From positions 1-22,987 of IMG/VR virus record IMGVR_UViG_3300017748_005283: 22,987 nt of DNA; one strand, given 5' to 3'. A program made the translations under genes and the position numbers. Origin of the DNA: a virus. Of the stretch, positions 2,177 to 19,675 are shown one piece after another (the first letter of the stretch is position 1; the number at the start of each line of letters is the position of its first letter). The notes beneath the pieces are model-generated. The model saw only the letters and a program-made list of their open reading frames with translations. It did not search any database and was not told where the DNA came from.

Positions 2177-2238
2177 GATTTACTCAAAAAATATTTAAAA
2201 TTTGCAAAACATTTAGGTAGATTTATATAATTATGATT

Positions 2239-2250: not shown

Positions 2251-2261
2251 ATGGAGTTAAT

Positions 2262-2600
2262 ATGAAAAAACTTACACGAAAACAATTAAGAAGACTTATT
2301 TTGACGGAATCAGAAGAGGTTGGCTCTTTTTATCGTACAACTTCCGGAGCAATGTTTGGAAATAGTCATTTTGGTGACCCAAGATTTACAGGCCTTACAG
2401 GTTTAATGGAGGCACTTGACGAAGCGCGCGGTCCTATTTATATGATTCGTGCAGTCGCCGAAGACTGTCGAGGTGCTGCAGCTGGTGGAGAGGATTCATA
2501 CGCTATCGATCAAGAGAATTATGATTATTTTGATAATATGGTCAAAATATGTGATGAACTCTTGGAAAAAATGCAGCATGAAGTCCTAATGCAATTTTAA
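2262..2600 (+). CDS. Small protein with capsid-targeting-like N-terminus
   Basis: A 112-residue protein beginning MKKLTRKQLRRLILTESEE. The basic helix is conserved, and possible cleavage sites are less canonical here (I-L-T-E, with S-E-E beyond it). The body has GSFYRTTSGAMFGNSHFGD, a helix GLTGLMEALDEARG, a short hydrophobic strand (PIYMIRAVAEDCRG) and a C-terminal helix (YFDNMVKICDELLEKMQHE). I recognise no family. GGAG is five bases from the ATG. It precedes the probable hydrolase gene at 2635 by 34 bases and is presumably co-transcribed with it. Confidence 0.78.
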   Translation: MKKLTRKQLRRLILTESEEVGSFYRTTSGAMFGNSHFGDPRFTGLTGLMEALDEARGPIYMIRAVAEDCRGAAAGGEDSYAIDQENYDYFDNMVKICDELLEKMQHEVLMQF

Positions 2601-2634
2601 TTTAGACTTAAGACATGGGATAGTTATGATCACT

Positions 2635-3420
2635 ATGAAAATAACAAGAAAACAATTGCGTCGACTCATAATAGAACAAATAGCCGACAACCCTACAGAT
2701 GTCATAGATAAAGATGAATTTGTAGGTCCTTTGCCGGCGAATTACAAATCTGAATCTTTTTTATTAGAAGTGTTACATGATGTAATTGCGGCTAAAGGTA
2801 AATCTAAAAATTACACTGACTTAACTTCACTAGACGGAGGTACAGTAGGTATTGCACATTTTGCCTCGGACGGTCTTGGAGGTCTATATGAAGCTTTCGG
2901 TGATGATTTAGTTAAAAAATATTTTGGCAAGTATAAACCTGATATTGATAGTGTTCAAGCTTTAAAAGACGCAACCTATATGGGGTGGAAAAAAAGCAGA
3001 ACTGGTTTACCTGTCTACTGTCGCGACAAAGGCGGACAGAAAGCTGTTAAAGGTACATGTTATAGAAGTATGACTTGGTGGGTCAAGGGTATGAAAGATT
3101 TTATTTCTAGCCCAGAGTCTAAAAAAATTCAATTAGAAGGTTGGAAAAAAGTTACTGTTAAACCAGCTGATAAAGTCATGGATGATTGGGACAAAGAATG
3201 GTTTACAAAAAGAGGTAGAGCAGTTGGGTACTGCCTTGTAAATAGTGGTGGTCCTAGTTTTTTACGTCGATTGGCCAAAGGAGGGAAGAGATCACCAAAT
3301 GAAACGATTGATGCATACTCAGCAGAACATGGCAGCGTTAGAAAGAGATTTAGAATATTAAATAAAATGTATCCTGATCCTAATTTCAAACCAAAGTCTT
3401 TTCCTAAAAGTTATAAATAA
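2635..3420 (+). CDS. Cargo protein with possible lysozyme/chitosanase-like domain
   Basis: A 261-residue protein. I take ATG 2635 as the start because it gives MKITRKQLRRLIIEQI, the shared leader. An in-frame ATG at 2626 would add MIT and has the better-placed purine stretch (GGGA at 2617-2620), so the start remains open. After the leader, with I-I-E as likely cleavage site, residues about 40-85 read ESFLLEVLHDVIAAKG and then LTSLDGGTVGIAHFASDG. A Glu followed about 25 residues later by an Asp/Gly and xGIxxF segment recalls GH46-type chitosanases and related lysozyme-fold enzymes. The C-terminal 100 residues include two Cys and a basic tail. If this is right, it is a glycan hydrolase carried in the virion. 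The family call is weak; the gene itself is secure. Confidence 0.6.
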   Translation: MKITRKQLRRLIIEQIADNPTDVIDKDEFVGPLPANYKSESFLLEVLHDVIAAKGKSKNYTDLTSLDGGTVGIAHFASDGLGGLYEAFGDDLVKKYFGKYKPDIDSVQALKDATYMGWKKSRTGLPVYCRDKGGQKAVKGTCYRSMTWWVKGMKDFISSPESKKIQLEGWKKVTVKPADKVMDDWDKEWFTKRGRAVGYCLVNSGGPSFLRRLAKGGKRSPNETIDAYSAEHGSVRKRFRILNKMYPDPNFKPKSFPKSYK

Positions 3421-3516
3421 ATTAGTTAAATATATTTTGTAAAGAAATAAGTCCCTATGTATAATCTAATTATTGGAATTATATCCAATAAGCAAGTAGA
3501 TAAAACAGGAGAATAC

Positions 3517-3741
3517 ATGCAATTCAATAAGTCAAAAAGCACAAAACGTTTCAATTTCAATATTAGCCGTGATACTAAGTCTCACCGTTCTGGTGCAAAT
3601 ACAGTAACAATCACAACAAATCCTTCAGATGATTCTTACCTAACTTCACGTTCACAGATCACGATGACGGTTAAAGAAGCAAAAGCTTTTCAAAACTTTT
3701 TAAATACTTATATTAGTGGCAAGACTTCAGTATCTAATTAA
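3517..3741 (+). CDS. Small conserved phage-type protein, unknown function
   Basis: A 74-residue protein, MQFNKSKSTKRFNFNISRD and onward. The start at 3517 is chosen because AGGAG lies five bases upstream. The frame extends to an ATG at 3457, but that adds a hydrophobic stretch (MYNLIIGIISNK) with no ribosome site. The middle (GANTVTITTNPSDDSYLTS) is beta-rich, and the C-terminal MTVKEAKAFQNFLNTY is a helix. It resembles small uncharacterised proteins of marine T4-like phages as I remember them, but I cannot check this. It lacks the cargo leader and is followed by a strong terminator 27 bases downstream. Confidence 0.75.
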   Translation: MQFNKSKSTKRFNFNISRDTKSHRSGANTVTITTNPSDDSYLTSRSQITMTVKEAKAFQNFLNTYISGKTSVSN

Positions 3742-3767
3742 CTGGAACAGATTGTTACCTAAAAAAG

Positions 3768-3799
3768 AAGGTCGGCACAAGCCGACCTTTAATTTTTTT
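3768..3799 (+). terminator. Intrinsic terminator
   Basis: A perfect 9-bp stem AAGGTCGGC (3768-3776) / GCCGACCTT (3781-3789) with loop ACAA is followed by TAATTTTTTT. It ends the transcription unit finishing with the gene at 3517-3741. The A-run before the stem could give weak function on the other strand, but no minus-strand gene faces it. Confidence 0.9.
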
Positions 3800-3864
3800 A
3801 ATTTTAACTTTCTTGATTATATAATTAATAATGACGATAACTCGAGTATCAGGAGAGGATATAC

Positions 3865-4374
3865 ATGAAAATTTCTAAACATAAATTAAAAAAAATTATT
3901 ATAGAAGAAGTTGAAAAAGCCTCACTAAAAGGCAAGAGTTTTCATGCTGATTTAATTAACGAATTACTTCAAGTTTATGATGAGTATGGAATCAAGTGTG
4001 CCTTTATTGGTAAGGCATATAATGAGGATGACAAACCAGGAACGTTGATCCTACTTGATGAATATCGCGATTCTTGTAATAATGCCCCTGGTTCTTTTAA
4101 GAAAGCGTTAGAATTCTTAAAAGATATATATGGAGATTCCAGAGTTAAGAAAATAGCAAAGACAAAATGGAAATATGCAAAAAATAAGAAAAGCAGTCAG
4201 ACAGCTAAATCTCTTGAGTCAGTGTTTTTTCCAAGAAGTTTAGGAGATGAAATATTTGTTATGCCTGCTAGTTGGATCCCTGTCGACTTAATTGAAGAGG
4301 TTTTAAAAGATCCGGAAAGTGGCTTAGAAGACTACCTAATACACATTGAAATGCGTAGTACTGGATTTGCTTAA
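3865..4374 (+). CDS. Cargo-type protein, unknown function
   Basis: A 169-residue protein starting MKISKHKLKKIIIEEVEK, an AT-codon version of the shared leader with I-I-E as the probable protease site. The start follows AGGAG at a workable distance. The body begins with a helix (SFHADLINELLQVYDEYG), then strands IKCAFIGKAY and GTLILLDEYRDS, a Lys-rich segment at about 90-115, and VFFPRSLGDEIFVMPASWIP. No catalytic motif is recognisable. The gene opens the unit after the terminator at 3768. It is inferred to be head cargo on the leader alone. Confidence 0.78.
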   Translation: MKISKHKLKKIIIEEVEKASLKGKSFHADLINELLQVYDEYGIKCAFIGKAYNEDDKPGTLILLDEYRDSCNNAPGSFKKALEFLKDIYGDSRVKKIAKTKWKYAKNKKSSQTAKSLESVFFPRSLGDEIFVMPASWIPVDLIEEVLKDPESGLEDYLIHIEMRSTGFA

Positions 4375-4408
4375 ATTAAATTTTTATATTGACTATTTAA
4401 AAGATATA

Positions 4409-4416
4409 TATAAATG
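4409..4416 (+). promoter_or_regulatory. T4-late-promoter-like octamer (TATAAATG)
   Basis: One base differs from TATAAATA, the -10 element of T4-type late promoters. It is 50 bases upstream of the start at 4467, in a 92-base gap that holds nothing else except the ribosome site. A single octamer in AT-rich DNA is weak evidence. Confidence 0.25.
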
Positions 4417-4466
4417 AAAATACTATATGATATCATTAAAATAACTACCCATAAGGAGAAGTAAAA

Positions 4467-5057
4467 ATGAAAAAAATGAGTAGAAAAGAATTGCGTGTAT
4501 TGATTGAATCTGCAATATTAAAAGAAGATCCGTCGGCAATTGGAGCCTTTGGAGACAGAATTAAACAAGGTGTTAATAGACTTAGAAATCAATCAAGGTT
4601 ACAAGTCGGTGGTGATCCTATGTCAGTTGATGGCTCCGGTCCAATATTAGGTGACTTTTGGATGTATATTACAGGAGAACCTGGATCGTCCGGTGAACAG
4701 TTCGGTGGCGTAAGATTTGCACTAGGCAATGATGGAAAGATGCTAGCATCCTATGATTCAGGAAAAAAAGTTACCTATCGATTTGTTGATGACTTTGATG
4801 GTATCCTAGTCATGGTGCGCGCACAAGGTTCAGGTGACCAGTTTCATAGATTAGCTCACGAACTTAGCAATAAAGGATTGAGTGCCGTTTACGGTAAAGA
4901 CATGTCTAACGTTAACATGGATGATTACATTGAAGAACTTAAGGCTTGTGAGGAGTGGTTAGTTGATAAATTCGAATCCTTAGGAGGAAAACCTTCCGGA
5001 AGCCTTAATGAGTCTAGAGGTACCTTATATAGAAAAAGATACTGGGGAAGATACTAA
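4467..5057 (+). CDS. Cargo-type protein, unknown function
   Basis: A 196-residue protein with the leader MKKMSRKELRVLIESAILKE, having L-I-E and then I-L-K-E. AAGGAG lies eight bases upstream of ATG. The body shows GDRIKQGVNRLRNQSRLQV and then a probable beta-rich domain (GDFWMYITGEPGSSGEQF, VRFALGNDGKML, VTYRFVDDFDGILVMVRA). A helical part follows (DQFHRLAHELSNKG and DDYIEELKACEEWLVDKF), and the tail is basic (YRKRYWGRY). I recognise no family. The stop codon abuts the stop of the minus-strand metzincin gene without a spare base. Confidence 0.78.
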   Translation: MKKMSRKELRVLIESAILKEDPSAIGAFGDRIKQGVNRLRNQSRLQVGGDPMSVDGSGPILGDFWMYITGEPGSSGEQFGGVRFALGNDGKMLASYDSGKKVTYRFVDDFDGILVMVRAQGSGDQFHRLAHELSNKGLSAVYGKDMSNVNMDDYIEELKACEEWLVDKFESLGGKPSGSLNESRGTLYRKRYWGRY

Positions 5058-5480
5058 TTACCAGTAAGGTTTCATGATACCGTGAGATTCATGAAGTAAC
5101 CCAAAAGCATGACCTAGCTCATGTCGAAGTGTAATATTGTCCTTTCTGATCATGTGGTCGGATAGGACAATTTTTGCATCTGTTAAAATTTTTTCATCAG
5201 GTTTGTTCTTATAATAGAAGAAATTTAATTTTGTCTTACCGTAGTCTTCTGTGTATGTTTTATTTCTAGATATTTGTATGACATTACTCTGATGATCACA
5301 ACTAGAGTTGAATTCAACCTCAATAGGCCCTAAGTCAAGTTCTTCCTGCCACCAGTTAATACTTTCAATAACTTCTCTTTCATTAACATGCTGATCACAA
5401 ACTTGAACTTTAGGCGTATTTTCCCAAACATATGTTTCTGAAGCGGCTGTACTGATTAAGTTTAAAAATAGTAAAAACAT
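5058..5480 (-). CDS. Secreted metzincin-type zinc metallopeptidase
   Basis: A 140-residue protein with a short N-terminal signal peptide (MFLLFLNLISTAAS, hydrophobic core then small residues). The full metzincin signature HELGHAFGLLH is at residues 120-130. The three His are zinc ligands and Glu121 is the catalytic base. GIMKP follows, supplying the Met-turn (Met136). Two Cys (29 and 61) could form a disulfide, fitting an extracytoplasmic site. It is short for a matrixin-like peptidase, with the active site almost at the C-terminus. AGAGGA precedes the ATG. It is a single minus-strand gene, divergent from the DUF192 gene and tail to tail with the gene at 4467. Possible roles are host envelope degradation or modification of competing surface proteins; these are guesses. 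Confidence 0.85.
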   Translation of the reverse strand: MFLLFLNLISTAASETYVWENTPKVQVCDQHVNEREVIESINWWQEELDLGPIEVEFNSSCDHQSNVIQISRNKTYTEDYGKTKLNFFYYKNKPDEKILTDAKIVLSDHMIRKDNITLRHELGHAFGLLHESHGIMKPYW

Positions 5481-5530
5481 TTTCTTTCCTCTTTGTTTTT
5501 ATTATAATTAGTTTTGTGCAAGGTTACATT

Positions 5531-5848
5531 ATGACTAAGTTATTTAGAGACTATAAACAAATTAAGACAAGAATTATGGGTAAGAGATATACTCTTTGGA
5601 TCTCCGATACTGACAGGAAAAGAAAGTTAGGTCTATCAGGCATTAAGAACCTGCCTAAGGGCACAGGCATGTTATTTAAATATAATAAATACGTAACTAA
5701 CAGCTTTACGATGAAAAATACTAGCATTCCCTTGACAATAATCTTCTTAGACGAGAGTATGAATGTGTTAGAGGTTTTTAAGTGCAGGCCTTTTTCTAAA
5801 AAGAGTATACAACCTAAAAATCCATATCAATATGTAATAGAAATATAG
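5531..5848 (+). CDS. DUF192 family protein
   Basis: A 105-residue protein starting MTKLFRDYKQIK. ATG 5531 is preferred because AAGG lies seven bases upstream; a GTG at 5516 would extend it by five residues with no ribosome site. The DUF192 pattern is clear: TDRKRKLGLSGIKNLP, then GTGMLFKY, then SFTMKNTSIPLTIIFLDESM and VLEVFKCRPFS. DUF192 proteins are usually small, often periplasmic in bacteria and of unknown biochemical role. Here no signal peptide is visible. It is divergent from the metzincin gene across a 50-base gap and precedes the cargo-type gene at 5898. Confidence 0.85.
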   Translation: MTKLFRDYKQIKTRIMGKRYTLWISDTDRKRKLGLSGIKNLPKGTGMLFKYNKYVTNSFTMKNTSIPLTIIFLDESMNVLEVFKCRPFSKKSIQPKNPYQYVIEI

Positions 5849-5863
5849 AATTAAAGTAGATAT

Positions 5864-5875
5864 ATAGTTATATAG
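5864..5875 (+). promoter_or_regulatory. Recurrent AT-rich upstream element (ATAGTTATATAG)
   Basis: Fourth copy of the ATAGTTATAT core, inside TATATAGTTATATAG and 22 bases before the start at 5898. Related versions occur at 6752-6759 (TAGTTATA, ahead of 6809) and in inverted form at 10294-10303 ahead of uvdE. Confidence 0.35.
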
Positions 5876-5897
5876 TAAAAGTATTCGTGGAGAGCAT

Positions 5898-6731
5898 ATG
5901 TCAAATTTAATTAGTGAAGAATGGATTAAAAGAGAGATTAAAAAGTCTATATTAAAAGAAGTCAATACTAGATATGACATAAAAAATACAAACAATATTA
6001 ATGAAGGAATTGGTGACTTGGCTTTTGACACTGTAGGTTTTGTTTTAGACAAAGCTGGAGGCCTTTTTGATATGATTCCGCTCAAGTATCAGGCTCCCAT
6101 TAAAGACTATATCTTTACTAAGGTAGCTAATTCGTTTGGATTTTCTGCCAATTCAATTATCGGGATGTTTGTCAGATCTTGCATAGCTGAACTTTCGTTT
6201 ACTAAGATGGGAGACATACTTGAGGGTGAAATTGAGTGTTCAGAAGTGACAGAACTGGTGTCTGTTGTCGCTGGTCGTCTATTAACAAAATTCGGAATTA
6301 AAAAGCTAATGGTTTGGATACTACAACACTACGATCTAGGAGAACTCACTAATATTTTGACCGGTTTTGATCCTTTCCAAAGAAATACGCAATATGTTTC
6401 ACAGGGATTACTTCCTAGACTTGAAGATGCTTATTCAGAAGAGAGTATTAGCGATAGCCAGGCTAATAATATAATGAATAGTCTTATTGGTATGGGTCTC
6501 TTACACCTTATCGAAGGCTTCGTCAGAGACTACATTATTGAGAGTGTTGTTCCGGCAGTCTCAGAAAAGCTTTGTGAAATGGATATTGATGATATTAGAG
6601 ACGAGATCGGAGACGCTGACTCCGGTGGGTTCGTAGACAGAATTGCTTCAGCAGGTGCAGAAGTGGGATCAGATGTAGGATCAGATGGTGTCCCTGAACT
6701 TTTACGTCGATTGCCCACAGATCTTTCATGA
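5898..6731 (+). CDS. Cargo-type helical protein, unknown function
   Basis: A 277-residue protein. The N-terminus (SNLISEEWIKREIKKSILKEV) is a looser version of the cargo leader: a basic amphipathic helix ending in I-L-K-E. I-N-E at about residues 33-35 is a better protease match. The body is largely helical with several amphipathic or partly hydrophobic helices (IGDLAFDTVGFVLDKAGGLF, SANSIIGMFVRSCIAELSF, IKKLMVWILQHYDL, GMGLLHLIEGFVRDYI). The acidic, Ser/Gly-rich C-terminus ends PELLRRLPTDLS. None is a clear membrane segment. GGAG lies seven bases before the ATG. I recognise no family. Confidence 0.72.
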   Translation: MSNLISEEWIKREIKKSILKEVNTRYDIKNTNNINEGIGDLAFDTVGFVLDKAGGLFDMIPLKYQAPIKDYIFTKVANSFGFSANSIIGMFVRSCIAELSFTKMGDILEGEIECSEVTELVSVVAGRLLTKFGIKKLMVWILQHYDLGELTNILTGFDPFQRNTQYVSQGLLPRLEDAYSEESISDSQANNIMNSLIGMGLLHLIEGFVRDYIIESVVPAVSEKLCEMDIDDIRDEIGDADSGGFVDRIASAGAEVGSDVGSDGVPELLRRLPTDLS

Positions 6732-6808
6732 TCGTAAGAAAATAATCACATTAGTTATAAAAAATAAAAAAATTGCAGTATAATTCAATATGCCCACAAG
6801 AGAAAATA

Positions 6809-9019
6809 ATGAAATTAAGCGAAAAAATAATAAGAGATATCATAAGAAAAAGAATAATTGAAGCAAAATTATCAGTACTTAATGAGGCAATATCAGTAAG
6901 TGATTATAAAATATCTGACCAAGGCGTATCTTTTGCATTAATTAAGGATAATCCATCAACGATAACAGGAAATAATCCTGTCTACCATGAACTACCTGGC
7001 AGCGCTGAAAATAAATCGGACGGTACTCAATGGTGTAATTACAATGGTCTGACCAATAATACAGTAAGAGGCGTGATCTTAGAAAGTGCCACCGGTCCTA
7101 GCTATTTCATACCTAGACCTTTTTTCACTGATCCTCAAGATTATAACACAAATTATGACAATTGTTCTTTTTTAAAAAAGTTAAGGGGAGACAGCGAATG
7201 GAAAATACTAGGCACAAATAATGATGAGTACAAAGAAGCCATAGAAGCATTCGCAAATGCTATTAGTAACGCGAGAAGCTTACTGGAGACTGAGTTAAAC
7301 GGAAATGATACACCTTTTGATGCATTAAAAAGACTCAATACTGCTAGTTCGAACAGGCCGACTGGGAGAGGTTGGGAATCTTATATGTATCAGGCTTTGA
7401 AAACAGTAGACGGTAATGATTATTCAAATATAAGTAAAGACACAGACAAACTCTCATCGTCATATTCCGGTGGAGACATTAAGGTGGGAGATAGGAATCT
7501 TTCGCTTATCACAAAATCGATATCTAAATCAGGCGGCCAATCAGAGTCATTTAAACAAGCAGTCTACATTAGGGCGATCCTAAAACCAAAAAATGACCCT
7601 TTAGTCATACCTGGATTTACAGGGACAGCATTAGCCGGCACTGCAGCAAATGGACGGACAATAGGTCAGCAAATGTTGAGATCCCCACCCGGGGTTGTAG
7701 GCACAGACTTACATTGGAGAAAAGTCTTAGCAAAACTTAATAATGTACCGCTAACTGATACTGAAGAGTGGTGGGCAGATATATTTTCTGATCTAGTGAT
7801 GGGTAAAGACAACTCCGGAAAAGGTTATAGTTACTCTGATTTTGAGAGGCTGTCAGCAGCTTATTCTGTTAAACAAGAACTTAATGATCCGAATGAAAGA
7901 TTTAGTCTAGGTCAAAGAATTTATAAAAGCTTTAATTCTGATTATGATCCACAAGGAGAGGGTGTAGGTATGCCTGATCAGGCTGACTTCTATGCCAACG
8001 CTTTTACGAAGGTATACAACAAAATGAGAACTGATGCCCAGACACGCTTAAGACAAGGATTGCCTTTACAGTGGTCTCAGGTTAATGGAAACATTCAAGC
8101 CGTAAATTATGATCTAGTTGAACGTGAATACAGGGAAAGTCTTCAAGCCAGCATAGATCAGCTCATACAAGATGAAGATGACATTCAAACTTTAACAATC
8201 GCCGGCGCTGTATCAGGAAGACCGGGTACAGTTAGTACTAATGTTGCTCCGGGTATTCCGGGTAGCGTTACGTTTAATCAAAGTCAAACCACCGGTGGTT
8301 ATCAAAATAATGCTCCTAATCGGGTTACGACAAGAACTACCGTGCCAAGTGATAGAGTGTTAGGCATTGACATGAGACTAGACATTTCCTCCAGTCCTGG
8401 AATTAATAGTTTTGATGACTTAGGTTATGTAAAGGGTTCGAACAAGAAAATCAAAGAGATAATTAGATCGTTAATATCTAGCAACAAAGAGTCTAATTTT
8501 AGAGGCACAACAGTCAGGCTTAAGGTTTATTACAATGATAAAGGCAAGGTTTATAAAATTGCTTTTCTTAGTGCAAGAGATAAAATTTCTAGCATAGTCA
8601 TGACAAAATTTAAAAAAGAATTAAAGACATCTCTTAATAATTTGTCGGTTGATGATTTTAACGTACGGGAGCCGGCGACACGGATTCAAGTGGCTAGTGC
8701 GCCTATAACAAGTACGACAGCCAGTACTACAGGAATATCATCGACAACTACAGAAATAAAAGGACATGTCCGACATGTATACACAAAGTCTGGTATGAGT
8801 TTCACAAGCAAAATAATACCTGATGAAAGCTACGCCGGCGATCCTGCAGTCTTAACAAGTCCGGAGTATGATGGTGAAGGATTGGTCATGGAAGAAATAC
8901 CCAATCCTTCTCGTGACGATCTATCAACTCTATGGTACGAGCATGTCGGTAAAAAGAAGATGGACGAGCAAGGCAGAAAAAATAAGACTTTCGTTAGAAT
9001 TAATTTTAAAGTGTATTGA
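6809..9019 (+). CDS. Large cargo-type multidomain protein, unknown function
   Basis: A 736-residue protein. I start it at ATG 6809; an upstream TTG at 6773 would add 12 residues with no ribosome site. The first 29 residues hold a leader-like basic helix with I-I-E and then L-N-E. About 186-215 contain GRGWESYMYQALKTV followed by SSSYSGGDIKVGDRNLSLITKS, a Glu...GD...K arrangement that could be a degenerate PD-(D/E)xK nuclease or pure coincidence. A Gly/Pro/Ser/Thr-rich stretch (about 470-515) and a Thr/Ser-rich linker (about 630-650) separate C-terminal parts. One of these (about 550-610) is an alpha-beta segment, VRLKVYYNDKGKVYKIAFLS. By size and leader it parallels T4 Alt, a packaged enzyme, but ADP-ribosyltransferase motifs were not found. 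It overlaps the minus-strand gene by 14 bases. Confidence 0.72.
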   Translation: MKLSEKIIRDIIRKRIIEAKLSVLNEAISVSDYKISDQGVSFALIKDNPSTITGNNPVYHELPGSAENKSDGTQWCNYNGLTNNTVRGVILESATGPSYFIPRPFFTDPQDYNTNYDNCSFLKKLRGDSEWKILGTNNDEYKEAIEAFANAISNARSLLETELNGNDTPFDALKRLNTASSNRPTGRGWESYMYQALKTVDGNDYSNISKDTDKLSSSYSGGDIKVGDRNLSLITKSISKSGGQSESFKQAVYIRAILKPKNDPLVIPGFTGTALAGTAANGRTIGQQMLRSPPGVVGTDLHWRKVLAKLNNVPLTDTEEWWADIFSDLVMGKDNSGKGYSYSDFERLSAAYSVKQELNDPNERFSLGQRIYKSFNSDYDPQGEGVGMPDQADFYANAFTKVYNKMRTDAQTRLRQGLPLQWSQVNGNIQAVNYDLVEREYRESLQASIDQLIQDEDDIQTLTIAGAVSGRPGTVSTNVAPGIPGSVTFNQSQTTGGYQNNAPNRVTTRTTVPSDRVLGIDMRLDISSSPGINSFDDLGYVKGSNKKIKEIIRSLISSNKESNFRGTTVRLKVYYNDKGKVYKIAFLSARDKISSIVMTKFKKELKTSLNNLSVDDFNVREPATRIQVASAPITSTTASTTGISSTTTEIKGHVRHVYTKSGMSFTSKIIPDESYAGDPAVLTSPEYDGEGLVMEEIPNPSRDDLSTLWYEHVGKKKMDEQGRKNKTFVRINFKVY

Positions 9020-10319: not shown

Positions 10320-11252
10320 ATGACAATACGTTTAGGTTATGCATGTATTAATATGCATCTTCAAAAAACACAAAAGATAACAACAAATCGAGGTATGATC
10401 AAGCGCACATTCAAGGCAAAGGGTATTTCTTATGCCTCAGAGTTGGCAGAGCATAACACAAGAAACATTTTACCAATTCTTATGTGGAATCACAAGAATA
10501 ACATTAAAGTCTTCCGCATGACATCCTGCCTATTCCCATGGGCATCTGAATATGAATTAGAAGATTTGCCACATTGGGAACAAATACAAATTAATCTTAA
10601 AAAAGTTGGTGCTTATGCAAAACACTGTGGTATACGCCTATCCTTTCACCCGGGACCTTTTAATATTCTCACTAGCCCAAAAGAACATGTCGTTGCCAAT
10701 TCAATTAAAGATCTAGACACCCACGGTAAAATTATGGACACCATTGGTATGGCACGTGATCGCTGGTCAAAGATTAATATTCACATCGGAGCCACATACG
10801 GCGATAAGCAGCCGGCTATCGATCGTTGGTGCAAAAACTACGAAAGGCTACCAGAAAGTGTCAAGACACGTATCACACTAGAAAATGACGACAAGGCTAG
10901 TATGTACAGTACCAAAGACTTATATCAAGTCTACGAGCGATTGGGTGTTCCTATTGTTTTTGACTATCATCATCACAAGTTCTGTACCGGTGGTCAAACA
11001 GAAGAAGAAGCACTTAAATTAGCAGCTAGTACGTGGGGTGATGTGCGTCCGACATGTCACTATTCAGAGTCTAAGGCACTAAATGAAGGACTAAACGTTA
11101 AACCTCAAGCACATAGTGATTATATTTTCCAAGAAGTACAAGACTACGGCTTAGATATTGATGTAGTATTTGAGGCAAAAGCCAAAGAACAGGCGATACT
11201 TAAGTACAGAGAACTATACGGAGATAAACAATGTCAATTACTGGCAAAATAA
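10320..11252 (+). CDS. uvdE: UV-damage endonuclease UvdE-like
   Basis: A 310-residue TIM-barrel endonuclease that nicks DNA 5' of UV photoproducts and other lesions. The family layout is clear: LGYACINM at the start, FRMTSCLFPW, LSFHPGPF (His110), INIHIGATYGDK (His155), ITLENDD (Glu188), VPIVFDYHHH (Asp215, His217/218), CHYSES (His247), His265 and FEAKAKE (Glu285). These match the metal ligands known in the Thermus enzyme. The residue two before His247, which is a carboxylated Lys there, reads Thr here (RPTCH). AAGGAG precedes ATG. Its last 22 bases overlap the start of the nucleotidyltransferase gene, implying translational coupling. It probably repairs sunlight-damaged phage DNA. Confidence 0.92.
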   Translation: MTIRLGYACINMHLQKTQKITTNRGMIKRTFKAKGISYASELAEHNTRNILPILMWNHKNNIKVFRMTSCLFPWASEYELEDLPHWEQIQINLKKVGAYAKHCGIRLSFHPGPFNILTSPKEHVVANSIKDLDTHGKIMDTIGMARDRWSKINIHIGATYGDKQPAIDRWCKNYERLPESVKTRITLENDDKASMYSTKDLYQVYERLGVPIVFDYHHHKFCTGGQTEEEALKLAASTWGDVRPTCHYSESKALNEGLNVKPQAHSDYIFQEVQDYGLDIDVVFEAKAKEQAILKYRELYGDKQCQLLAK

Positions 11253-11935
11253 AACAACATTTACCCCATCAAGAATTATCAGAAAAAATCTGGAAAGAAG
11301 AAAAATTAAAACCTGCGATACGTGAGCAACTGCTAGAAATAGCAGATGTATTCATTGAGTATCTTGGAATTCCTATCGATGTTGCTGATATCACAATGAC
11401 AGGCTCATATGCAAATTACAACTATACACCCTATTCAGACATCGACCTGCATATTATAGTTGATCCAAAGTCCATCAATAAGGATGTTGATTTAGTTGAA
11501 GAATTTTTAAAAGCTAAACGACAATTCTGGAACGATCGACATGATATTAGAGTACTAAATATAGAGGTTGAGATGTATGCGCAAGATATCAACGAACCCC
11601 ATGCTAGTAGTGGTGTATATTCTATCAAGAAAGACGAGTGGATAGAAAAGCCTAGTAAGTTTAGAAAAGAGTTTGATAGGACTAACGTTACCAGAAAAGT
11701 AAAGTATTTTAAAAGGCTTATCGACATAGAAATAGAAGAAGCCAAGATGAATAGAAACATTAAAGGACTAGAAAAACTCATAAATAAAATCCGTGATATG
11801 CGTTCAGCCGGGCTCGAAAAAAGTGGTGAAATGGCCGATGAGAATATTATTTATAAGGTACTGCGCAGTGAGGGAGATATACAAAAACTTTATGACATGA
11901 AAGATAATATCTTCGACGTTGACTTAAGTCTTTAG
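11231..11935 (+). CDS. Nucleotidyltransferase (polymerase-beta-like fold)
   Basis: A 234-residue protein. TGSYANYNYTPYSDIDLHI (about residues 57-75) is the nucleotidyltransferase GS...DxD motif, with Asp70 and Asp72 as metal-binding carboxylates. The third is probably Glu112 or Glu114 in LNIEVEMYAQD. The C-terminal half is helical and basic (KVKYFKRLIDIEIEEAK). Substrate cannot be told; relatives add nucleotides to RNA, proteins or antibiotics. The start lies inside uvdE, with GGAG seven bases upstream. The stop overlaps the end of the convergent cargo gene by four bases. Confidence 0.85.
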   Translation: MSITGKIKQHLPHQELSEKIWKEEKLKPAIREQLLEIADVFIEYLGIPIDVADITMTGSYANYNYTPYSDIDLHIIVDPKSINKDVDLVEEFLKAKRQFWNDRHDIRVLNIEVEMYAQDINEPHASSGVYSIKKDEWIEKPSKFRKEFDRTNVTRKVKYFKRLIDIEIEEAKMNRNIKGLEKLINKIRDMRSAGLEKSGEMADENIIYKVLRSEGDIQKLYDMKDNIFDVDLSL

Positions 11936-12987
11936 TAATCGTACATATCCGAGTCTAAGAAGCGGTCTAGTCTGTATGGAAGATATGGTTTGCCGGATTT
12001 TCTAAGTTCTCTCTGTTTTGCAGCATCTCTATAAACATCTTCTTGCCCTTGCCTAAATCGCTGCTGAGCCCTTCTCTTGAGAGCATAACCGGCATACGGG
12101 CCTTCATCCGGAATTCCCATATCAGATTTAGTGCCTGCGTCAAATGATCCTCTATTCACGCTTGTGTCGTAGAGGCCAAGGTGCTTGTCGATTTCGTCAA
12201 CTGATTGTTGCAGAAACATGTCTTCTTGCTTTTTATTTGCAACGTCTTCTCCTTTCCCAATGTCGCGTCTCACGAGTTTAATTCTGTTAAGTGCTCTTTT
12301 TCTCAACCCCATTATAATTTCTTCAGGGGCATCTTCACTAATTGCTGTAAATATTCTTTGTGCTAGTTCAAAGTTGTTGAATACATGAGGTAAACCTAAT
12401 AGCTTCTGAGTCTCAGACAATATTGACTCTCTAATAATATTTCTTAATTTTGATTCAGTAATTTTACCATTTTCCTGACCTTCATTGATTACTGTTATGT
12501 GATCCGGGCCTCCACCTGAAAGTATTTCTTGGTACTGGATGAGCCAGTTAGAATCATATTCTCCTGCCTTTTTATCATTAGAATATGGACCACCGTGAGG
12601 ATAGTACTTGAAGTTTGGATTCCCACCGCCAAATAATTCTAAAGCATGATATAGTCGGTTCTGACGGTGGCGAGCGATTCTTCGACTAATCGTATTAGAT
12701 CCGGGTACAGTTGGGTTTTGTAATTGACCTAATTGGATATATCGACTTCTTAAAATTTTATATATCATGTCACCGTCAGGTGGTAGGTTATACTCATTGT
12801 ATCTTGGATTGTAGGGATCATTACCACTTGGATCTCTTTGACCGTATTGATTGTATATTTCTCGTGCCTTTTGTATTAATGCATTATCTGCTTGGAAATT
12901 TTCTAAATCCAGATCGTGAGGTAAACCAACAGCTCTTTGAGTTTCTGAAAGTAACATTTTTTTTATTTGATTTTTAGATATATTCAT
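11932..12987 (-). CDS. Two-module cargo-type protein with duplicated leader
   Basis: A 351-residue protein made of two units that begin alike. Residues 3-24 (ISKNQIKKMLLSETQRAVG...) and 176-201 (ITESKLRNIIRESILSETQ...) both end in LSETQ-(R/K)-x-x-GLPH, and both carry the basic helix of the window's cargo leader. Just before the second unit is I-N-E (167-169), a candidate prohead-protease site. Module 1 is rich in Asn, Pro, Tyr and Gly (YNQYGQRDPSGNDPYNPRY); module 2 is helical and charged with a basic, Arg-rich tail. This looks like a fusion of two packaged proteins or a polyprotein. AAGG lies six bases from ATG. It overlaps the 3' end of the nucleotidyltransferase gene and follows the gene at 12996 by eight bases. 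Confidence 0.78.
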   Translation of the reverse strand: MNISKNQIKKMLLSETQRAVGLPHDLDLENFQADNALIQKAREIYNQYGQRDPSGNDPYNPRYNEYNLPPDGDMIYKILRSRYIQLGQLQNPTVPGSNTISRRIARHRQNRLYHALELFGGGNPNFKYYPHGGPYSNDKKAGEYDSNWLIQYQEILSGGGPDHITVINEGQENGKITESKLRNIIRESILSETQKLLGLPHVFNNFELAQRIFTAISEDAPEEIIMGLRKRALNRIKLVRRDIGKGEDVANKKQEDMFLQQSVDEIDKHLGLYDTSVNRGSFDAGTKSDMGIPDEGPYAGYALKRRAQQRFRQGQEDVYRDAAKQRELRKSGKPYLPYRLDRFLDSDMYDY

Positions 12988-12995
12988 AAATAACC

Positions 12996-13907
12996 TTATT
13001 TCTTCTTCTTAGCTTTTTTTACAACTGCCCATGATTTTGAAGGTGTTGCTGAGTTAACTCTTGCATGTGCCCATTGATGTTGGCTCATACCTTTCCTAGA
13101 TCCGCTACTTGCCCAAGCAGCCAGACCTTTTTTATATTCTGCATATACTGAACTAGGAGTCAATCCACGCTTTTCAGCTTTCTTTTTAAGCGTAGCTTTT
13201 GTTTTTGCACTTAAACCCTTGCCTTCTTCCATTTCAGCTGCATCTTCATCTGTTATTGAATTAAGCATTTCTTCTTCTAAGGCCTCCATAATTATTTTCC
13301 TTAATTGCCTTCTAGTTGTTTGTTCTTTCATACTGTCACTCCTCTTTCTTGTTTTAAAACCTTTTTTGTTTCTTTCTTTTTCTTCGCTATCTCCCCTAAG
13401 TTTATATATTCTTGGATCGTTAGGATTCTTTTTATAGAGTTCAGAAGCTTTAGCCATATCTTTACCTCTTTGGCCGCGAGCTTTGTATTTTTTCTTTTGA
13501 TAATCATTAGGTTTAGGTTCAGACTTCTTTTCATTGATTTTGATAAATGACTCGACGACGTCTTCTAAGGTTTCACTTGCAACCTCTTTCCATGGTTCAC
13601 CTTTTTTGTTGGGATCTGGATACGGGTGGCCACAATTTCTGCACTTATCAACACCTTCTTCATTGTGTGTGCCACAATTTGGGCAAACTAGTCTATTCGT
13701 GTCACCTTCATCTAATTTCTTTTCCCTAGCTATTTTATCTATTACTTTTTTAGGTAAGAAATCCATTTTAGTAATCTTAGGATTACCATCAGCTGGAATA
13801 CTTCTATGACCTACATTTTTATCTTTTTTAGACTTACTTTTCTTTTTTTCATTTAGTTTTTGTAAATTGTTCAGAACTTGCTTTATTAATTTAGTGTCTT
13901 TCTTCAT
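12996..13907 (-). CDS. Zinc-ribbon / internal leader / DUF5872-like protein
   Basis: A 303-residue, Lys-rich protein. Residues 1-22 (MKKDTKLIKQVLNNLQKLNE) resemble a cargo leader ending in L-N-E. A zinc ribbon CPNCG...CRNCG uses Cys75, 78, 89 and 92. A second segment, VVESFIKINEKK (117-128), has I-N-E. A third, TTRRQLRKIIMEALEEE (197-213), is a full leader in mid-protein. The C-terminal 75 residues (AKTKATLKKKAEKRGLTP, then SGSRKGMSQHQWAHARVNS) match my memory of DUF5872, found in large viruses and phages. Met193 has its own strong ribosome site, so a 111-residue form is likely. The basic, zinc-binding composition suggests nucleic-acid binding inside the head. Confidence 0.8.
   Translation of the reverse strand: MKKDTKLIKQVLNNLQKLNEKKKSKSKKDKNVGHRSIPADGNPKITKMDFLPKKVIDKIAREKKLDEGDTNRLVCPNCGTHNEEGVDKCRNCGHPYPDPNKKGEPWKEVASETLEDVVESFIKINEKKSEPKPNDYQKKKYKARGQRGKDMAKASELYKKNPNDPRIYKLRGDSEEKERNKKGFKTRKRSDSMKEQTTRRQLRKIIMEALEEEMLNSITDEDAAEMEEGKGLSAKTKATLKKKAEKRGLTPSSVYAEYKKGLAAWASSGSRKGMSQHQWAHARVNSATPSKSWAVVKKAKKKK
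13329..13344 (-). promoter_or_regulatory. Internal ribosome site and start codon within the zinc-ribbon gene
   Basis: On the minus strand GAGGAG (complement of 13339-13344) stands seven bases before an in-frame ATG (complement of 13329-13331). Initiation here gives MKEQTTRRQLRKIIMEALEE and the DUF5872-like domain: a 111-residue protein that begins with the cargo leader, as the free-standing genes do. The site is better than that of the annotated start at 13907. Confidence 0.7.
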
Positions 13908-13993: not shown

Positions 13994-15166
13994 ATGTCAA
14001 TTTTTAAAAATCATAAAACAGTTGCAGATCGATCTGCATCAGATAGAAGGCGCCATAAAGAAAAAATAGACAAGGCAATAAAGGAAGGTATACATGATAT
14101 TGTTGCTGAAGAGTCTATTATCGGTCAAGACGGAAAGAAGAAAATTAAAATACCTGTCAGAGGTATAAAAGAATATCAATTTATACATGGTACAGGTAAC
14201 GGTACAAAAGGCGTAGGTTCTGCACAAGGTCAAGATATTCAAAAAGGTCAGGTCGTTAGAAAACCTAGTCAAAAAGGTCAAGGAAAAGGTAAACCAGGTA
14301 AACCAGGCGACAATAAAGGTGAAGATTATTATGATGTTGAAATATCGCTAGATGAATTAGCAAAATATCTTTTTGACGATTTAAATCTTCCTGACTTAGA
14401 TAAAAAGCAATCTGCAACTGTTATGGCAGAAAAAATTAAAAGAAAGGGTTATCGATCTAAAGGTATTAGGGCTAGATTATCTAAGAAAGAAACTCTTAAA
14501 AATAAGATTAAAAGACAAAATCAGGCGGTTAAAAACGGCACGTATGATCCGGATAGTGAAGAAAGATTTCCATTTCACTATGAAGACTTAAAATATAAAC
14601 ATATCGATGTAAAGAAAAAACCCATTACAAATGCTGTTATTTTTATGATTATGGATGTTTCTGGATCAATGGGAAAGCGTAAAAAATTCTTAGCACGATC
14701 ATTCTTTTTCTTATTATATCAATTTATCCGTTATAAATATCAAACTGTCGAAATTGTATTTATATCGCATACAACTGAGGCCCAAGAAGTAAACGAAGAT
14801 GACTTTTTTAAAAAGGCTAGTAGTGGAGGTACTTTCATATCGTCAGGTTTGACGATGGCAGAAGATATAATTAACGAAAGGTATAGTCCAACTTCCTGGA
14901 ACATATATGCTTTCCACTGCTCAGATGGAGATAATTGGTCCGAAGACAACGATAAGGCATTAGAAAAAATGTCTTATTTGTCTGACGTGAGTCAACTCGC
15001 AGGATATATACAAATTAAACCTGAGCAAAGCTCTATATGGGGTGAAGAAATGGCAAAAGTATTTGAAGTCTTAACTAGTAATAGTTTTAAAGTTTGCCGA
15101 ATTAAAGAGAAGTCTGATATTTGGCCTGAATTTGCCAAACTATTTGGAGGAAAATATGAGCTCTAA
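13994..15166 (+). CDS. yeaH: YeaH/YhbH family VWA-domain protein (DUF444)
   Basis: A 390-residue protein of the YeaH/YhbH (DUF444) family, the same length class as bacterial members. The basic N-terminus has the family's ADRSASDRRRHKEKI segment. A low-complexity Gly/Lys linker follows (about 85-108), and then the VWA domain with the MIDAS motif DVSGSM (Asp221, Ser223, Ser225), SSGGTFISSG (Thr280) and CSDGDNW (Asp311). In bacteria it works with PrkA/YeaG and SpoVR/YcgB in starvation and stress responses; its exact partner function is not known. It is the first gene of an operon. The SpoVR start lies inside its last codons, so the two are translationally coupled. Confidence 0.93.
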   Translation: MSIFKNHKTVADRSASDRRRHKEKIDKAIKEGIHDIVAEESIIGQDGKKKIKIPVRGIKEYQFIHGTGNGTKGVGSAQGQDIQKGQVVRKPSQKGQGKGKPGKPGDNKGEDYYDVEISLDELAKYLFDDLNLPDLDKKQSATVMAEKIKRKGYRSKGIRARLSKKETLKNKIKRQNQAVKNGTYDPDSEERFPFHYEDLKYKHIDVKKKPITNAVIFMIMDVSGSMGKRKKFLARSFFFLLYQFIRYKYQTVEIVFISHTTEAQEVNEDDFFKKASSGGTFISSGLTMAEDIINERYSPTSWNIYAFHCSDGDNWSEDNDKALEKMSYLSDVSQLAGYIQIKPEQSSIWGEEMAKVFEVLTSNSFKVCRIKEKSDIWPEFAKLFGGKYEL

Positions 15167-16481
15167 CTGGGGTGTAAAAGATCTTAAGATATGGGATGAC
15201 AAAATATGTGAAATTGCAAAAAGTTACGGATTAGACTGGCATGAAATAACATATGAAATATGTGATTATTATGAAATGATTGGTCATATGTCATATCACG
15301 GAATGCCTAGTCACTATAATCATTGGTCATTTGGTAAATCATTTGAACAAACACACTTTAATTACAATTTAGGACAAACTGGTTTACCATATGAAATGAT
15401 AATTAATTCTAATCCTTCTATTGCTTATTTAATGATGCAAAACCCATTATATTTACAAATTCTTATTATGGCGCATTGTATTGGTCACAGTGACTTTTTT
15501 AAAAATAACAGATGTTTTAAAAATACTGATCCAGATCATGTAGTTTCTAGAATGAGAAATGCCAAAAAAAGAATTCAAGGATATGTTGAAGATCCACTTA
15601 TAGGGCAAGATAAGGTAGAAAAATTTTTAGATAACTTACACGCAATAAAGTATCAAACCAATAGATATAACTCTCCGAGAAAGTCTAGACAAGATATCAA
15701 AGCCGGCGAAATAAAAAAATATAACAAGTACAAAGAAAAAGGAATTATTTTAAATGCAGATGTACTTCATAGCCAGAGGCTACTGCAGCCAGATCATGAT
15801 ATGCTATCTTTCTTTTCTGAATATTATCCTGACTACTTCAAAGACTGGCAACTGGATTTAATTGACATTGTAAAAGAGGATAGTCAGTATTTTATGCCCC
15901 AAATACAAACAAAAATATTAAACGAGGGTTGGGCTTCTTTTTGGCACTATAAAATAATGCATGATTTAAATCTACCAGATTCAATGCATCTACCTTTTCT
16001 TAAAATGCATAATGCTGTTGTCAGACCACACCTAGGTAGGGTTAACCCTTATCATGTAGGCTTCTATATATTCCAAAAATTAGAAAAAGAGCATGGATTA
16101 GAAAAATGCTTTGAAGTAAGAGAGATAAGTGACGATGTATCAGCACTAAGAATGTTGTTGAATGAAGAAGATTTTAGAGAGTTAAATTTCTTTGCATACG
16201 AAAATAAAAAAGATGGAAGCGCAGTAGTATCTGAAGTTGTGGATCATGATGATTGGAAAGTAGTCAGGAATGAACTAATTAGAAACACAGGAATCAATAT
16301 GATACCGCACGTGTATGTAGACAGCATTGACAAAGCAAACACTCTAATTCTCAAACACGAACATGATGGTAGGGACTTGGACTTGGATTATGCAGACAAA
16401 GTCATGGATCACGTACGGAATCTTTGGCCATATGATGCAAAGCTTTACACTGTAATAGAAGAAGAAGTTTGGGAAATTTAA
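15156..16481 (+). CDS. spoVR: SpoVR family protein
   Basis: A 441-residue protein of the SpoVR/YcgB family. I start it at ATG 15156 (MSSNWGVKDLKIW), which has GGAGG five bases upstream; an upstream ATG at 15132 lacks a ribosome site. Family features seen are the GLDWHEITYEICDYYEMIG opening, GMPSHYNHWSFGKSFE, LMMQNPLYLQILIMAHCIGHSDFF, LNEGWASFWHYKIMHDL and RPHLGRVNPYHVGFYIF. Many conserved His and Glu residues suggest a metal site. The N-terminus overlaps the end of the YeaH-like gene by 11 bases. Its length is close to, or slightly less than, bacterial SpoVR (about 500). Function is known only by association with PrkA and YeaH. Confidence 0.93.
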   Translation: MSSNWGVKDLKIWDDKICEIAKSYGLDWHEITYEICDYYEMIGHMSYHGMPSHYNHWSFGKSFEQTHFNYNLGQTGLPYEMIINSNPSIAYLMMQNPLYLQILIMAHCIGHSDFFKNNRCFKNTDPDHVVSRMRNAKKRIQGYVEDPLIGQDKVEKFLDNLHAIKYQTNRYNSPRKSRQDIKAGEIKKYNKYKEKGIILNADVLHSQRLLQPDHDMLSFFSEYYPDYFKDWQLDLIDIVKEDSQYFMPQIQTKILNEGWASFWHYKIMHDLNLPDSMHLPFLKMHNAVVRPHLGRVNPYHVGFYIFQKLEKEHGLEKCFEVREISDDVSALRMLLNEEDFRELNFFAYENKKDGSAVVSEVVDHDDWKVVRNELIRNTGINMIPHVYVDSIDKANTLILKHEHDGRDLDLDYADKVMDHVRNLWPYDAKLYTVIEEEVWEI

Positions 16482-16536
16482 TTTTACATTCAAAATAGAA
16501 TAAAATATTATTGTAGCGAAACAGGAGAAACAATAT

Positions 16537-18474
16537 ATGTCACGCACTAAAAAAGACTTTTTAGACTTGATCCAAAAGCAAAGAAAAAAGAAAAAGAAAG
16601 AAAAATTTGAAGGCAATTTTTTAGAATACCTTGAAATGATTAAAGAGAATCCTGAGAAAATAAAGTTAGCACATAAAAGGCTTTATGAAACAATTTGCGA
16701 TCACGGTTTGGAAACCGTAGATGTAGGTTCTGATTCATACAGAGATATTTTTAATGGTGACAAAATAAGAACTTATGATTACTTTAAAGAAGAATTTTTT
16801 GGAATGGAGTCAGTAATTAATAAATTAATGAGATTTTTAAAATCAGCTGCCCACAAAGGTGAAGAAAGCAGACAGGTTCTTCTTTTAATGGGACCGGTGG
16901 GTGCTGGAAAATCTGCGCTAACTGAACACATAAAAAGAGCTCTCGATGGCCAAAGATACTACCATTTAGAAGGTGATCCACAGAGAGGTGAACCCCTACA
17001 GTTAATACCAAGATCACTTAGAAGTGAAATGGAAGACGTATTAGGCGTTACGATAGAAGGTGACTTAAGTCCAATAGCTCGGTGGGACTTATTAAACAAG
17101 TACGAAGGAAAATATGAAAATTTTAAAGTTGTAGAGTCGACATATTCCCAACGAGGTAGAAGAGGTATCGCTGTAGTACCTCCTATGGATGCGAATTCGC
17201 AGGATACTTCTGTGTTAATTGGGACTGAGGACATTAGTAAACTAGATCTTTATTCTGAGGATGATCCTAGAGTACTCTCTCTTAACGGTGCGTTTAACGT
17301 AGGTAATAGAGGCATAGTTGAGTTTGTTGAAGTTTTTAAAAATGAAATTGAATTTTTACATACTATGTTAACAGCAACGCAAGAAAAACGTGTACCGACA
17401 CCAGGTAAACATGATATGATTTTCTTTGACGGTGTAATTCTTGCTCACTGTAATGAAAGTGAGTGGAATAGATTTAAATCAGAGCACACTAATGAAGCCA
17501 TCTTGGATCGTGTTGTTAAGATCAATGTTCCCTATGTTCTAGAGTTAGATCAAGAAAAGAAAATATATCAAAAAATGATTCGAAGATCTGATTTTAGAAA
17601 TGCTCATATTGCTCCTCACACTTTGAAAATTGCATCGATGTTTTCTGTAATGAGTCGACTCCAACCTTCTAGAAAGTGTGACTTGCTTACAAAAATGAAA
17701 ATTTATAACGGTGAAGCAATTATTGAAAAAGGCAGAGTTAAAAAGGTTGATATACGTGACCTCAAAGACGAAGCACAACATGAAGGAATGGAAGGTATTT
17801 CCACAAGATTTATAATGAAGTCATTAGACTCAGCTTTATCAGATTCAGATAATGGCATGATAACACCAATTAACGTTGTTGATTCTTTAATTAAGCAGGT
17901 AAAAGAACAAATCATAGACGAGGATGCTAAAACTAGATATCTTGAGATATTACAAAAAATTATTCGAGAAGAATATCTTAGAATTCTAGAAACAGAAATT
18001 GCTAAGGCATTTATAACAGCATACGAGGAACAAGCCCAATCTTTATTTGACTCCTATTTAGACAACGCTGAATGCTTTACAACAAAGACAAAGGTTAAAA
18101 ACAAAATAACTAGAGAAGAATCAGAACCAGATGAAAAGTTTATGAGAACAATTGAAGAAATGATTGGTGTCGTCGGATCAGCCCGAGATGGTTTTAGAAA
18201 TGATGTAACAGCATTTATGTTTTCTAAAATGAGAAAAGGTGAGACAGTTGATTATCGATCTTATGGTCCACTAAAAGAAGCAATTGAACAATATCTTATT
18301 TCATCTGTTAAAGATATTGCAAGAATTGTTACCCGTTCTAAATCGCGCGATGACAATCAAAAGAAAAAATATACTGACATGATTGATACATTAATTAATG
18401 AATATGGATACAATGAATCATCTGCAGAGGAGATATTAACTTATGCTAGCAACAATCTCTGGCGAGATTCCTAA
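16537..18474 (+). CDS. prkA: PrkA/YeaG family AAA+ serine kinase
   Basis: A 645-residue protein, essentially the same length as E. coli YeaG. After a basic helix (QKQRKKKKKEKFE) comes the PrkA AAA+ core with Walker A GPVGAGKS (119-126) and the family's FFDGVILAHCNESEWNRF (about 293-310). The C-terminal kinase-like region runs from about residue 400 (GISTRFIMKSLDSALSDSD) to the end. Reported activities of the family are Ser/Thr phosphorylation and, for the B. subtilis protein, ATP-dependent proteolysis. AGGAG precedes the ATG. It is third in the operon, after YeaH and SpoVR. The next gene begins 32 bases inside its 3' end. All key nucleotide-binding residues are present, so it is probably active. 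Confidence 0.95.
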   Translation: MSRTKKDFLDLIQKQRKKKKKEKFEGNFLEYLEMIKENPEKIKLAHKRLYETICDHGLETVDVGSDSYRDIFNGDKIRTYDYFKEEFFGMESVINKLMRFLKSAAHKGEESRQVLLLMGPVGAGKSALTEHIKRALDGQRYYHLEGDPQRGEPLQLIPRSLRSEMEDVLGVTIEGDLSPIARWDLLNKYEGKYENFKVVESTYSQRGRRGIAVVPPMDANSQDTSVLIGTEDISKLDLYSEDDPRVLSLNGAFNVGNRGIVEFVEVFKNEIEFLHTMLTATQEKRVPTPGKHDMIFFDGVILAHCNESEWNRFKSEHTNEAILDRVVKINVPYVLELDQEKKIYQKMIRRSDFRNAHIAPHTLKIASMFSVMSRLQPSRKCDLLTKMKIYNGEAIIEKGRVKKVDIRDLKDEAQHEGMEGISTRFIMKSLDSALSDSDNGMITPINVVDSLIKQVKEQIIDEDAKTRYLEILQKIIREEYLRILETEIAKAFITAYEEQAQSLFDSYLDNAECFTTKTKVKNKITREESEPDEKFMRTIEEMIGVVGSARDGFRNDVTAFMFSKMRKGETVDYRSYGPLKEAIEQYLISSVKDIARIVTRSKSRDDNQKKKYTDMIDTLINEYGYNESSAEEILTYASNNLWRDS

Positions 18475-19675
18475 GGTAGAAGTATATAGTAGAGACGTCA
18501 TTGATAGATTTCTAGCAAATGAAAAAGCTCATTTTTTAAGTTTTGAAAATAGAAATGCGCTATACCAAAACAAAAAGCTAATAACCACATCAGGATTGAA
18601 CTATTTAAATATTCTTCCAGAAGGAAAGACAAATACTGTCCTTAAAAACTTATTATTGAAAGAGTATAATGAATGTGAAAAAGTATATCCATACTTGGGT
18701 GATGTTTTTTTAGAATTATTTTTTAACAAAAAAGTAAAGATTAAGAGTCTTAAAAGATTTGAGAAGAAAAGTGAAAAAAACTTTTTAAAATCTTTAAGAA
18801 CGGAAGTGAAAAATATAACATCATGGATCATGAACAACATTAATCTTGAAAGAGCTATTAACATCCAGTCAACAACCCAAAAAGATATAATTTTAGAACT
18901 TGAAGATGAATTTTCTTTAAAGTTTTCTTACGACTTTGATTTCTTCAATAATTTAAGTAATTTAACTTTTAGAGAGTATAAATTTATTATTATAGATGGT
19001 TATATAGAAACTGTTGGTGAGGTTCATCACCTATTTTCAAAAGCAAATATTAATAAAATTCCCTACGTTGTATTCTGTTATGGCATGTCTGATGAAGTAA
19101 AACATAATATCATGATCAATAACAGGCAAGGAAGGTTTTGCATACTTCCTGTTTCGTTAGACGTTAATGATGAAAATACTTTAAATATTTTAAATGATAT
19201 AGCAATACTCCATGAAGGAGATGTAGTTTCTAGTAATATGGGTCAAACAATTTCGCAAGAGATAAGAAAAGAACTTAAATACGGTAAAAAAATAACATTT
19301 CGTAAAAATTCAATACAACTTACGCCTAAAGCTACGATTAAAAAGATTGAATCACATAAAAAGTTTTTAATAAAAAGACTAGATGATGCAATGACAAAAG
19401 GAGACGTAAACCTAGACCCTATTAAAAACAGGATAAAAAACTTTTCAATGAAAAAACTAAATATATATCTACCAACTGATTTAGTTGTTGATAATGGCTT
19501 TCAAAGAGAATTAGTATATTCTTTGGCTTTCTTAAGAAACATAAATAAAGAATATAAAATTTTATCTTATCTTGAAAGGGAGTATTATATTCCTAAGCAA
19601 TTTTTAGACCTTGTAGAAAAAAAGTCTAAAAGTCTAAGGGAAATATTTCAAAATATAGAAATAGTCTTAACATAG
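18443..19675 (+). CDS. Divergent GroEL-like (chaperonin) protein, probably ATPase-less
   Basis: A 410-residue protein. The central part follows the GroEL apical domain in order: YKFIIIDGYI (GroEL PFILLADKKI), KIPYVVFCYGMSDEVKHNI (GKPLLIIAEDVEGEALATL) and RQGRFCILPVSLDV (RGIVKVAAVKAPGF). It continues with LNDIAILHEGDVVSSNMG (LQDIATLTGGTVISEEIG), YGKKITFRKNSI (LGQAKRVVINKDTT) and a helix IESHKKFLIKRLDDAM. The N-terminal part could be a degenerate equatorial domain (ITTSGLNYLNIL against ITKDGVSVAREI), but the ATPase motif GDGTTT is not present. The protein ends some 130 residues before GroEL would. The alignment is by eye from memory. GAGGAG lies ten bases from ATG; the start is inside prkA. It could be a substrate-binding subunit or a decoy that modifies host GroEL. 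Confidence 0.65.
   Translation: MLATISGEIPKVEVYSRDVIDRFLANEKAHFLSFENRNALYQNKKLITTSGLNYLNILPEGKTNTVLKNLLLKEYNECEKVYPYLGDVFLELFFNKKVKIKSLKRFEKKSEKNFLKSLRTEVKNITSWIMNNINLERAINIQSTTQKDIILELEDEFSLKFSYDFDFFNNLSNLTFREYKFIIIDGYIETVGEVHHLFSKANINKIPYVVFCYGMSDEVKHNIMINNRQGRFCILPVSLDVNDENTLNILNDIAILHEGDVVSSNMGQTISQEIRKELKYGKKITFRKNSIQLTPKATIKKIESHKKFLIKRLDDAMTKGDVNLDPIKNRIKNFSMKKLNIYLPTDLVVDNGFQRELVYSLAFLRNINKEYKILSYLEREYYIPKQFLDLVEKKSKSLREIFQNIEIVLT

Follow-up and report, generated by a model that had tools for sequence, protein, structure and literature searches.

In bacteriophage T4, proteins are directed to the head by N-terminal propeptides, and the cleavage by gp21 falls after L/I-X-E (PMC9026906). 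gp21 itself has an essential short form, gp21s, which is made from an internal start at Met45 (PMC9026906). The polyvalent proteins of phages and conjugative elements carry several domains in each packaged polypeptide, and these are sometimes freed by proteolysis (PMC5512222).

The stretch of viral DNA analyzed here (the window; IMG/VR record IMGVR_UViG_3300017748_005283, 22,987 nucleotides) contains on its minus strand, at 12996-13907, an open frame of 303 codons encoding 303 amino acids. We consider it probable, at roughly 0.62, that in a large T4-related phage this gene specifies a modular capsid-cargo polyprotein which the prohead protease cleaves. Its parts, and a second internal leader found in another gene of the window, are as follows.

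12996..13907, minus strand: fused cargo gene, 303 amino acids, stop codon included; homologues L002-L037.
13848..13907, minus strand: leader-like helix 1, residues 1-20, with LNE (18-20) at its end followed by KKK; helical in the model, conserved as DNKLIKQVLNNLQKLNEKKK.
13617..13688, minus strand: zinc ribbon, residues 74-97 (PF13240/PF13248).
13530..13571, minus strand: leader-like helix 2, residues 113-126, with INE (124-126) at its end followed by KK; model helix 114-129.
13332..13505, minus strand: middle basic helical module, residues 135-192, with RKRSDS at its end; pLDDT about 82.
13339..13344, minus strand: GAGGAG, Shine-Dalgarno (SD)-like, seven bases 5' of Met193; absent from L003 and L002.
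13329..13331, minus strand: codon of Met193, a candidate nested start, in the alignment column of a Lys of D[ST]KKES, a conserved motif.
13269..13331, minus strand: internal leader 3, residues 193-213 (MKEQTTRRQLRKIIMEALEEE), with IME before A and LEE before E; leader matrix score 26.7.
12999..13214, minus strand: DUF5824 module, residues 232-303, with a basic tail; PF19141, E 2.6e-7; pLDDT 80-91, the folded part.
12403..12465, minus strand: second internal leader of the window, residues 175-195 of the neighboring gene 11932-12987; matrix score 29.6; preceding codon GGT, no start.

Three distinct domains, the zinc ribbon, the middle module, and DUF5824, share one chain, in which [LI]xE sites occur as LNE 18-20, LDE 65, INE 124-126, IME 206, and LEE 210; the zinc ribbon (PF13240, E 1.4e-5, residues 75-95) and the tripeptides at 18-20 and 124-126 had been named in the earlier note as additions of the long form, and all are present. 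Pfam matches in the protein are limited to the zinc ribbon and DUF5824, and the domains by which polyvalent proteins are defined, enzymatic or other, are absent. The C-terminal module matches DUF5824 (PF19141) at 31.3 bits, above the curated cut-off of 25, as do all 12 members of set A2. This family, to which phrog_28338 corresponds, is without known function; no solved relative was found by sequence, a literature search found no paper naming it, and a structure search returned no PDB matches below E 0.001, the best viral match being another DUF5824 protein. In the AlphaFold model (mean pLDDT 66, pTM 0.30), helices at 2-31, 114-129, and 192-216 are joined by low-confidence stretches, with better-defined, separately predicted modules between them, like beads on a string.

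The neighboring genes include, in a row at 13994-18474 (plus strand), those for DUF444 (YeaH-like), SpoVR, and the PrkA kinase, a bacterial stress and sporulation set; in the comparison with named phages, the nearest PrkA proteins are those of the Thermus phages phiYS40 and TMA and of very large uncultured phages (about 31-34% identity). The protein adjoining PrkA (18443-19675, plus strand) has a remote GroEL-like match (phrog_5725, E 1e-12). The UV endonuclease UvdE (10320-11252, plus strand) is found in all relatives compared. A row of at least eight leader-bearing genes spans 267-9019 (plus strand), for most of which the three contigs compared show no detectable relative; it appears to be a fast-changing cargo region.

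Relatives of the cargo gene were found at 36 viral loci, with more from a profile search, and 48 distinct DUF5824 proteins were compared; no relatives were detected by tblastn against named phages or in the bacterial and archaeal genomes searched. The module order is a leader-like N-terminus, an optional zinc ribbon, a middle basic module that ends in ...KPRxDTKKES, then a further leader-like helix, and finally DUF5824. The counterpart of helix 1 is conserved in L002, L004, L007, L032, and L035, and that of helix 2 reads NLDE followed by KRKK in L002 and VNLDE followed by KKK in L004.

At seven loci (L009, L012, L013, L020, L024, L026, and L027) two neighboring genes encode the last two modules separately, the middle module forming a leader-bearing gene of its own; both genes begin with leaders of the type M(N/S/Q/D)DLxLLEEFIxEALLDEA. 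The earlier note had pointed to a split version in related phages as a check; it exists, and the break lies at the same junction. In the split pairs the upstream gene ends in RHDSKK and a stop codon, and after a gap of 9-11 nt comes an MNDL leader followed by DUF5824. A leader-like helix with an [LI]xE end stands before DUF5824 whether the genes are fused or split. The window gene is a mosaic: compared with L002, residues 73-112 are 82% identical and the middle module 25%, and identity to L003, the closest relative of the gene, which is without the zinc ribbon, is 85% over the last 165 residues. The identity switch near INE126 coincides with a module boundary, which suggests that modules may be exchanged at leader junctions.

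Leaders were scored with a matrix derived from those at N-termini (consensus KITRRQLRRIIREELA). Applied to the window and three relatives, it identifies 81 N-terminal leaders; in shuffled sequences it identifies none at a score of 12. Seven strong internal copies were found, two of them in the window. Gene 11932-12987 (minus strand) has the leader twice, as MNISKNQIKKMLLSETQRAVGLPHDL at the N-terminus and as KITESKLRNIIRESILSETQKLLGLPHVF at residue 175, with LSE followed by TQ in both. In the 284-kb relative G011, several leader genes, at loci L076 (11033-15030, minus strand) and L072 (5415-6140, minus strand), contain internal leaders with ATG, GTG, ATA, or GTA as the preceding codon; these would be former starts, ranging from intact ones to decayed ones. 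The codons at the start position of internal leaders are ATG, ATG, GTG, ATA, GTA, and GGT, with ATG at Met193. Since internal leaders persist with a start codon (ATG, GTG) or without one (ATA, GTA, GGT), it is the peptide that is kept, not the start, and the conserved element is a leader peptide with an [LI]xE end.

Among these related, and hence not independent, sequences, the 1743 junction residues hold 127 copies of [LI]xE (47 +- 5.5 when shuffled), the 3707 residues of DUF5824 two, and the 1165 residues of the middle module none; part of the excess could reflect the helix pattern, leader helices being rich in L, I, and E. For 45 of 48 members (11 when shuffled), the distance from an [LIV]xE to the helix end is at most three residues, a count somewhat inflated by the trimming of K-rich linkers. 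Where DUF5824 follows the helix directly, with no linker (n = 17), [LIV]xE plus one residue precedes it in every case, x being variable. The N-terminal leaders of the same phages carry [LI]xE in the interval after the core in 74 of 79 cases, compared with 30 expected by shuffling and 27% in non-leader proteins. In the window gene the last [LI]xE is about 20 residues before DUF5824, with an acidic insert between, and a search found the insert of the window and L003 in no further contig. A long polyprotein with internal L/I-x-E sites, as the earlier note proposed, is thus favored by motif enrichment, by a fixed position at junctions across 48 distinct relatives, and by near absence from the modules.

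Of 24 records, six have a gene for a T4-type prohead protease (PF03420), among them G001 and every one of the three longer than 230 kb; none was found on the window, a 23-kb fragment, or on most shorter records. Head targeting, cleavage, and module function are what we infer here, the first two by analogy with T4. The gene would encode three small basic modules (zinc ribbon, helical basic module, and DUF5824), each after an amphipathic leader helix with an [LI]xE end. The leaders would bring the chain to the prohead core, a T4-type prohead protease would cut after [LI]xE at the junctions, and the modules would be released in the head as separate mature proteins. The fused genes and the adjacent pairs, each gene with a leader, would then be equivalent after cleavage; fusion would cost nothing, because cleavage parts the products anyway.

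The alternative that survives best, possible though not probable, is that ribosomes also start at Met193 and make a 111-residue leader-DUF5824 cargo protein beside the long form, a nested gene that could coexist with polyprotein cleavage. T4 gp21, with its essential short form, offers a precedent (PMC9026906). The observations with which the earlier note introduced this idea hold: GAGGAG does stand seven bases before an in-frame Met193 in the ORF, within GAGGAGTGACAGTATG (13344-13329, minus strand), a sequence that occurs once in the window; its SD duplex energy of -8.6 kcal/mol is better than the -3.1 kcal/mol of the annotated start at Met1; and the short product would open with the leader copy scoring 26.7. 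The region from -30 to +33 around Met193 has a folding energy of 0.0, compared with means of -4.2 for annotated starts and -8.7 for other internal ATGs. The ORFs of the window and of three relatives contain 2945 internal in-frame ATGs; an SD energy of -8 or below is found at 21, and one of these, Met193, is unstructured as well, by thresholds picked after the site had been seen. Random codings of RKRSDS with the codon usage of the window yield AGGAG in 4.3% of cases and GAGGAG in 1.2%. The same ORF has SD-like sequences before Met151 (-7.1) and Met207 (-6.1). Measured against chance, the site is unusual, though not extreme, and taken by itself it is a good one for initiation. An out-of-frame ORF at 13328-13534, whose ATGA end falls at Met193, was also considered and was dropped because homology backs the main frame.

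Conservation speaks against the nested start. L002/G001 is syntenic and has the most similar flanking genes (about 91-94% identical: UvdE 93%, SpoVR 92%, DUF444 91%, nucleotidyltransferase 91%), and its internal leader is without the Met and without GAGGAG. L003 keeps the Met, but its SD (now -1.7 kcal/mol) is lost through a synonymous AGG to AGA exchange; of codons 188-192, which directly precede the Met, four (188, 189, 191, and 192) differ synonymously from those of the window. A junction Met is absent from 29 of 38 fused members. Relatives lacking both GAGGAG and Met, which the earlier note had named as evidence against its idea, are found in L002 and most fused members. The other internal leader of the window has no start codon. 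A DNA-pattern search for the SD-Met site returned 12 contigs, all unrelated except that of L003. In the nine fused members with a Met near the junction, the mean SD energy is -4.6, compared with -2.5 for other internal ATGs (p = 0.007), in a set that contains the window itself, selected for its SD; in at least two of them, L151 and L155, GGAGA stems from conserved Met-Glu-Lys codons.

The SD before Met193 is itself formed by the Arg-Lys-Arg-Ser codons of a conserved motif. In seven members (L015, L016, L018, L019, L021, L028, and L030) AGGAG precedes a conserved Met within RRxRMEK in the middle module, where no leader begins, so Arg codons can imitate SDs, and in Arg-rich proteins a GAGGAG ahead of an internal Met argues only weakly for a nested gene. 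Met193 with its GAGGAG is best described as a feature of this lineage that may add some short product; it is not the means by which the family obtains its C-terminal module. Because the start site is not kept in relatives, cutting of one long protein is the likelier source of several pieces. The comparison strengthens the polyprotein reading and leaves the nested gene a weak one. A wider proposal, which we think unlikely as a whole, joins the two: large T4-related phages would use head-targeting leaders inside proteins for both targeting and cutting, their cargo genes would fuse, split, and swap modules at leader boundaries, and in the window a newly arisen start would let the last module be produced by proteolysis and internal initiation together.

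It is quite unlikely that the gene encodes a plain multidomain protein in which the internal helix is only a linker, with neither cleavage nor a second start. Helices of the junction type between domains can be structural. However, [LI]xE is nearly absent from the modules and fixed at the junctions, and the same helix serves as an N-terminal leader where the modules are separate genes.

The remaining suggestion of the earlier note, that two adjacent cargo genes were recently fused in frame with the start of the second one preserved, is very unlikely: the split pairs with their short gaps, the common codon register (KK-stop-SSNM when split and KKESHHM when fused, TAG against GAG), and the Met of L014 exactly at the start position of the split gene speak for two leader-bearing genes as the architecture, and that part stands, but Met193 stands in the column of the leading Lys of D[ST]KKES, before the split genes' stop codon and their ATG register, which makes it a substituted residue at the C-terminal end of the upstream module and neither a relic start nor one preserved from the second gene, and fused forms are widespread and also occupy the deepest-drawn branches of a tree of the 76-column DUF5824 domain (at least six fusion or fission changes; midpoint-rooted, poorly resolved, with few columns, and giving no direction), which leaves "recent" unsupported.

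If the reading as a cleaved capsid-cargo polyprotein is right, the leader with its [LI]xE end is an exchangeable joint, at which cargo genes can merge or split while the contents of the head stay unchanged. In uncultured large phages, mature head proteins and their N-termini could then be predicted by a rule read from sequence, and the processing of capsid-cargo polyproteins would have a case open to testing.

Compared with the described systems, the processing would fit a known kind, that of T4-like head proteins. As in gp21/gp21s, an in-frame internal start would shorten the product of a head gene; unlike that of gp21s, the Met193 start is not conserved, and the short form here is only predicted. 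Like the polyvalent proteins (PMC5512222), the window gene strings several domains in one polypeptide, but these are small basic modules rather than enzyme domains, and a prohead protease would take the place of an embedded peptidase. Another likeness is to the gp21-processed T4 proteins IPI-IPIII and Alt (PMC9026906), which share with this system a short N-terminal leader with L/I-x-E at its end and the use of one leader type on many unrelated cargoes, a T4-type protease being encoded by phages related to the window. The window-type leader (KITRRQLRRIIREE) is of another type than the T4 capsid targeting sequences, and packaging is here deduced from sequence; and, in contrast to IPI-IPIII and Alt, the leaders of the window gene also lie inside one chain, where they separate two or three modules.
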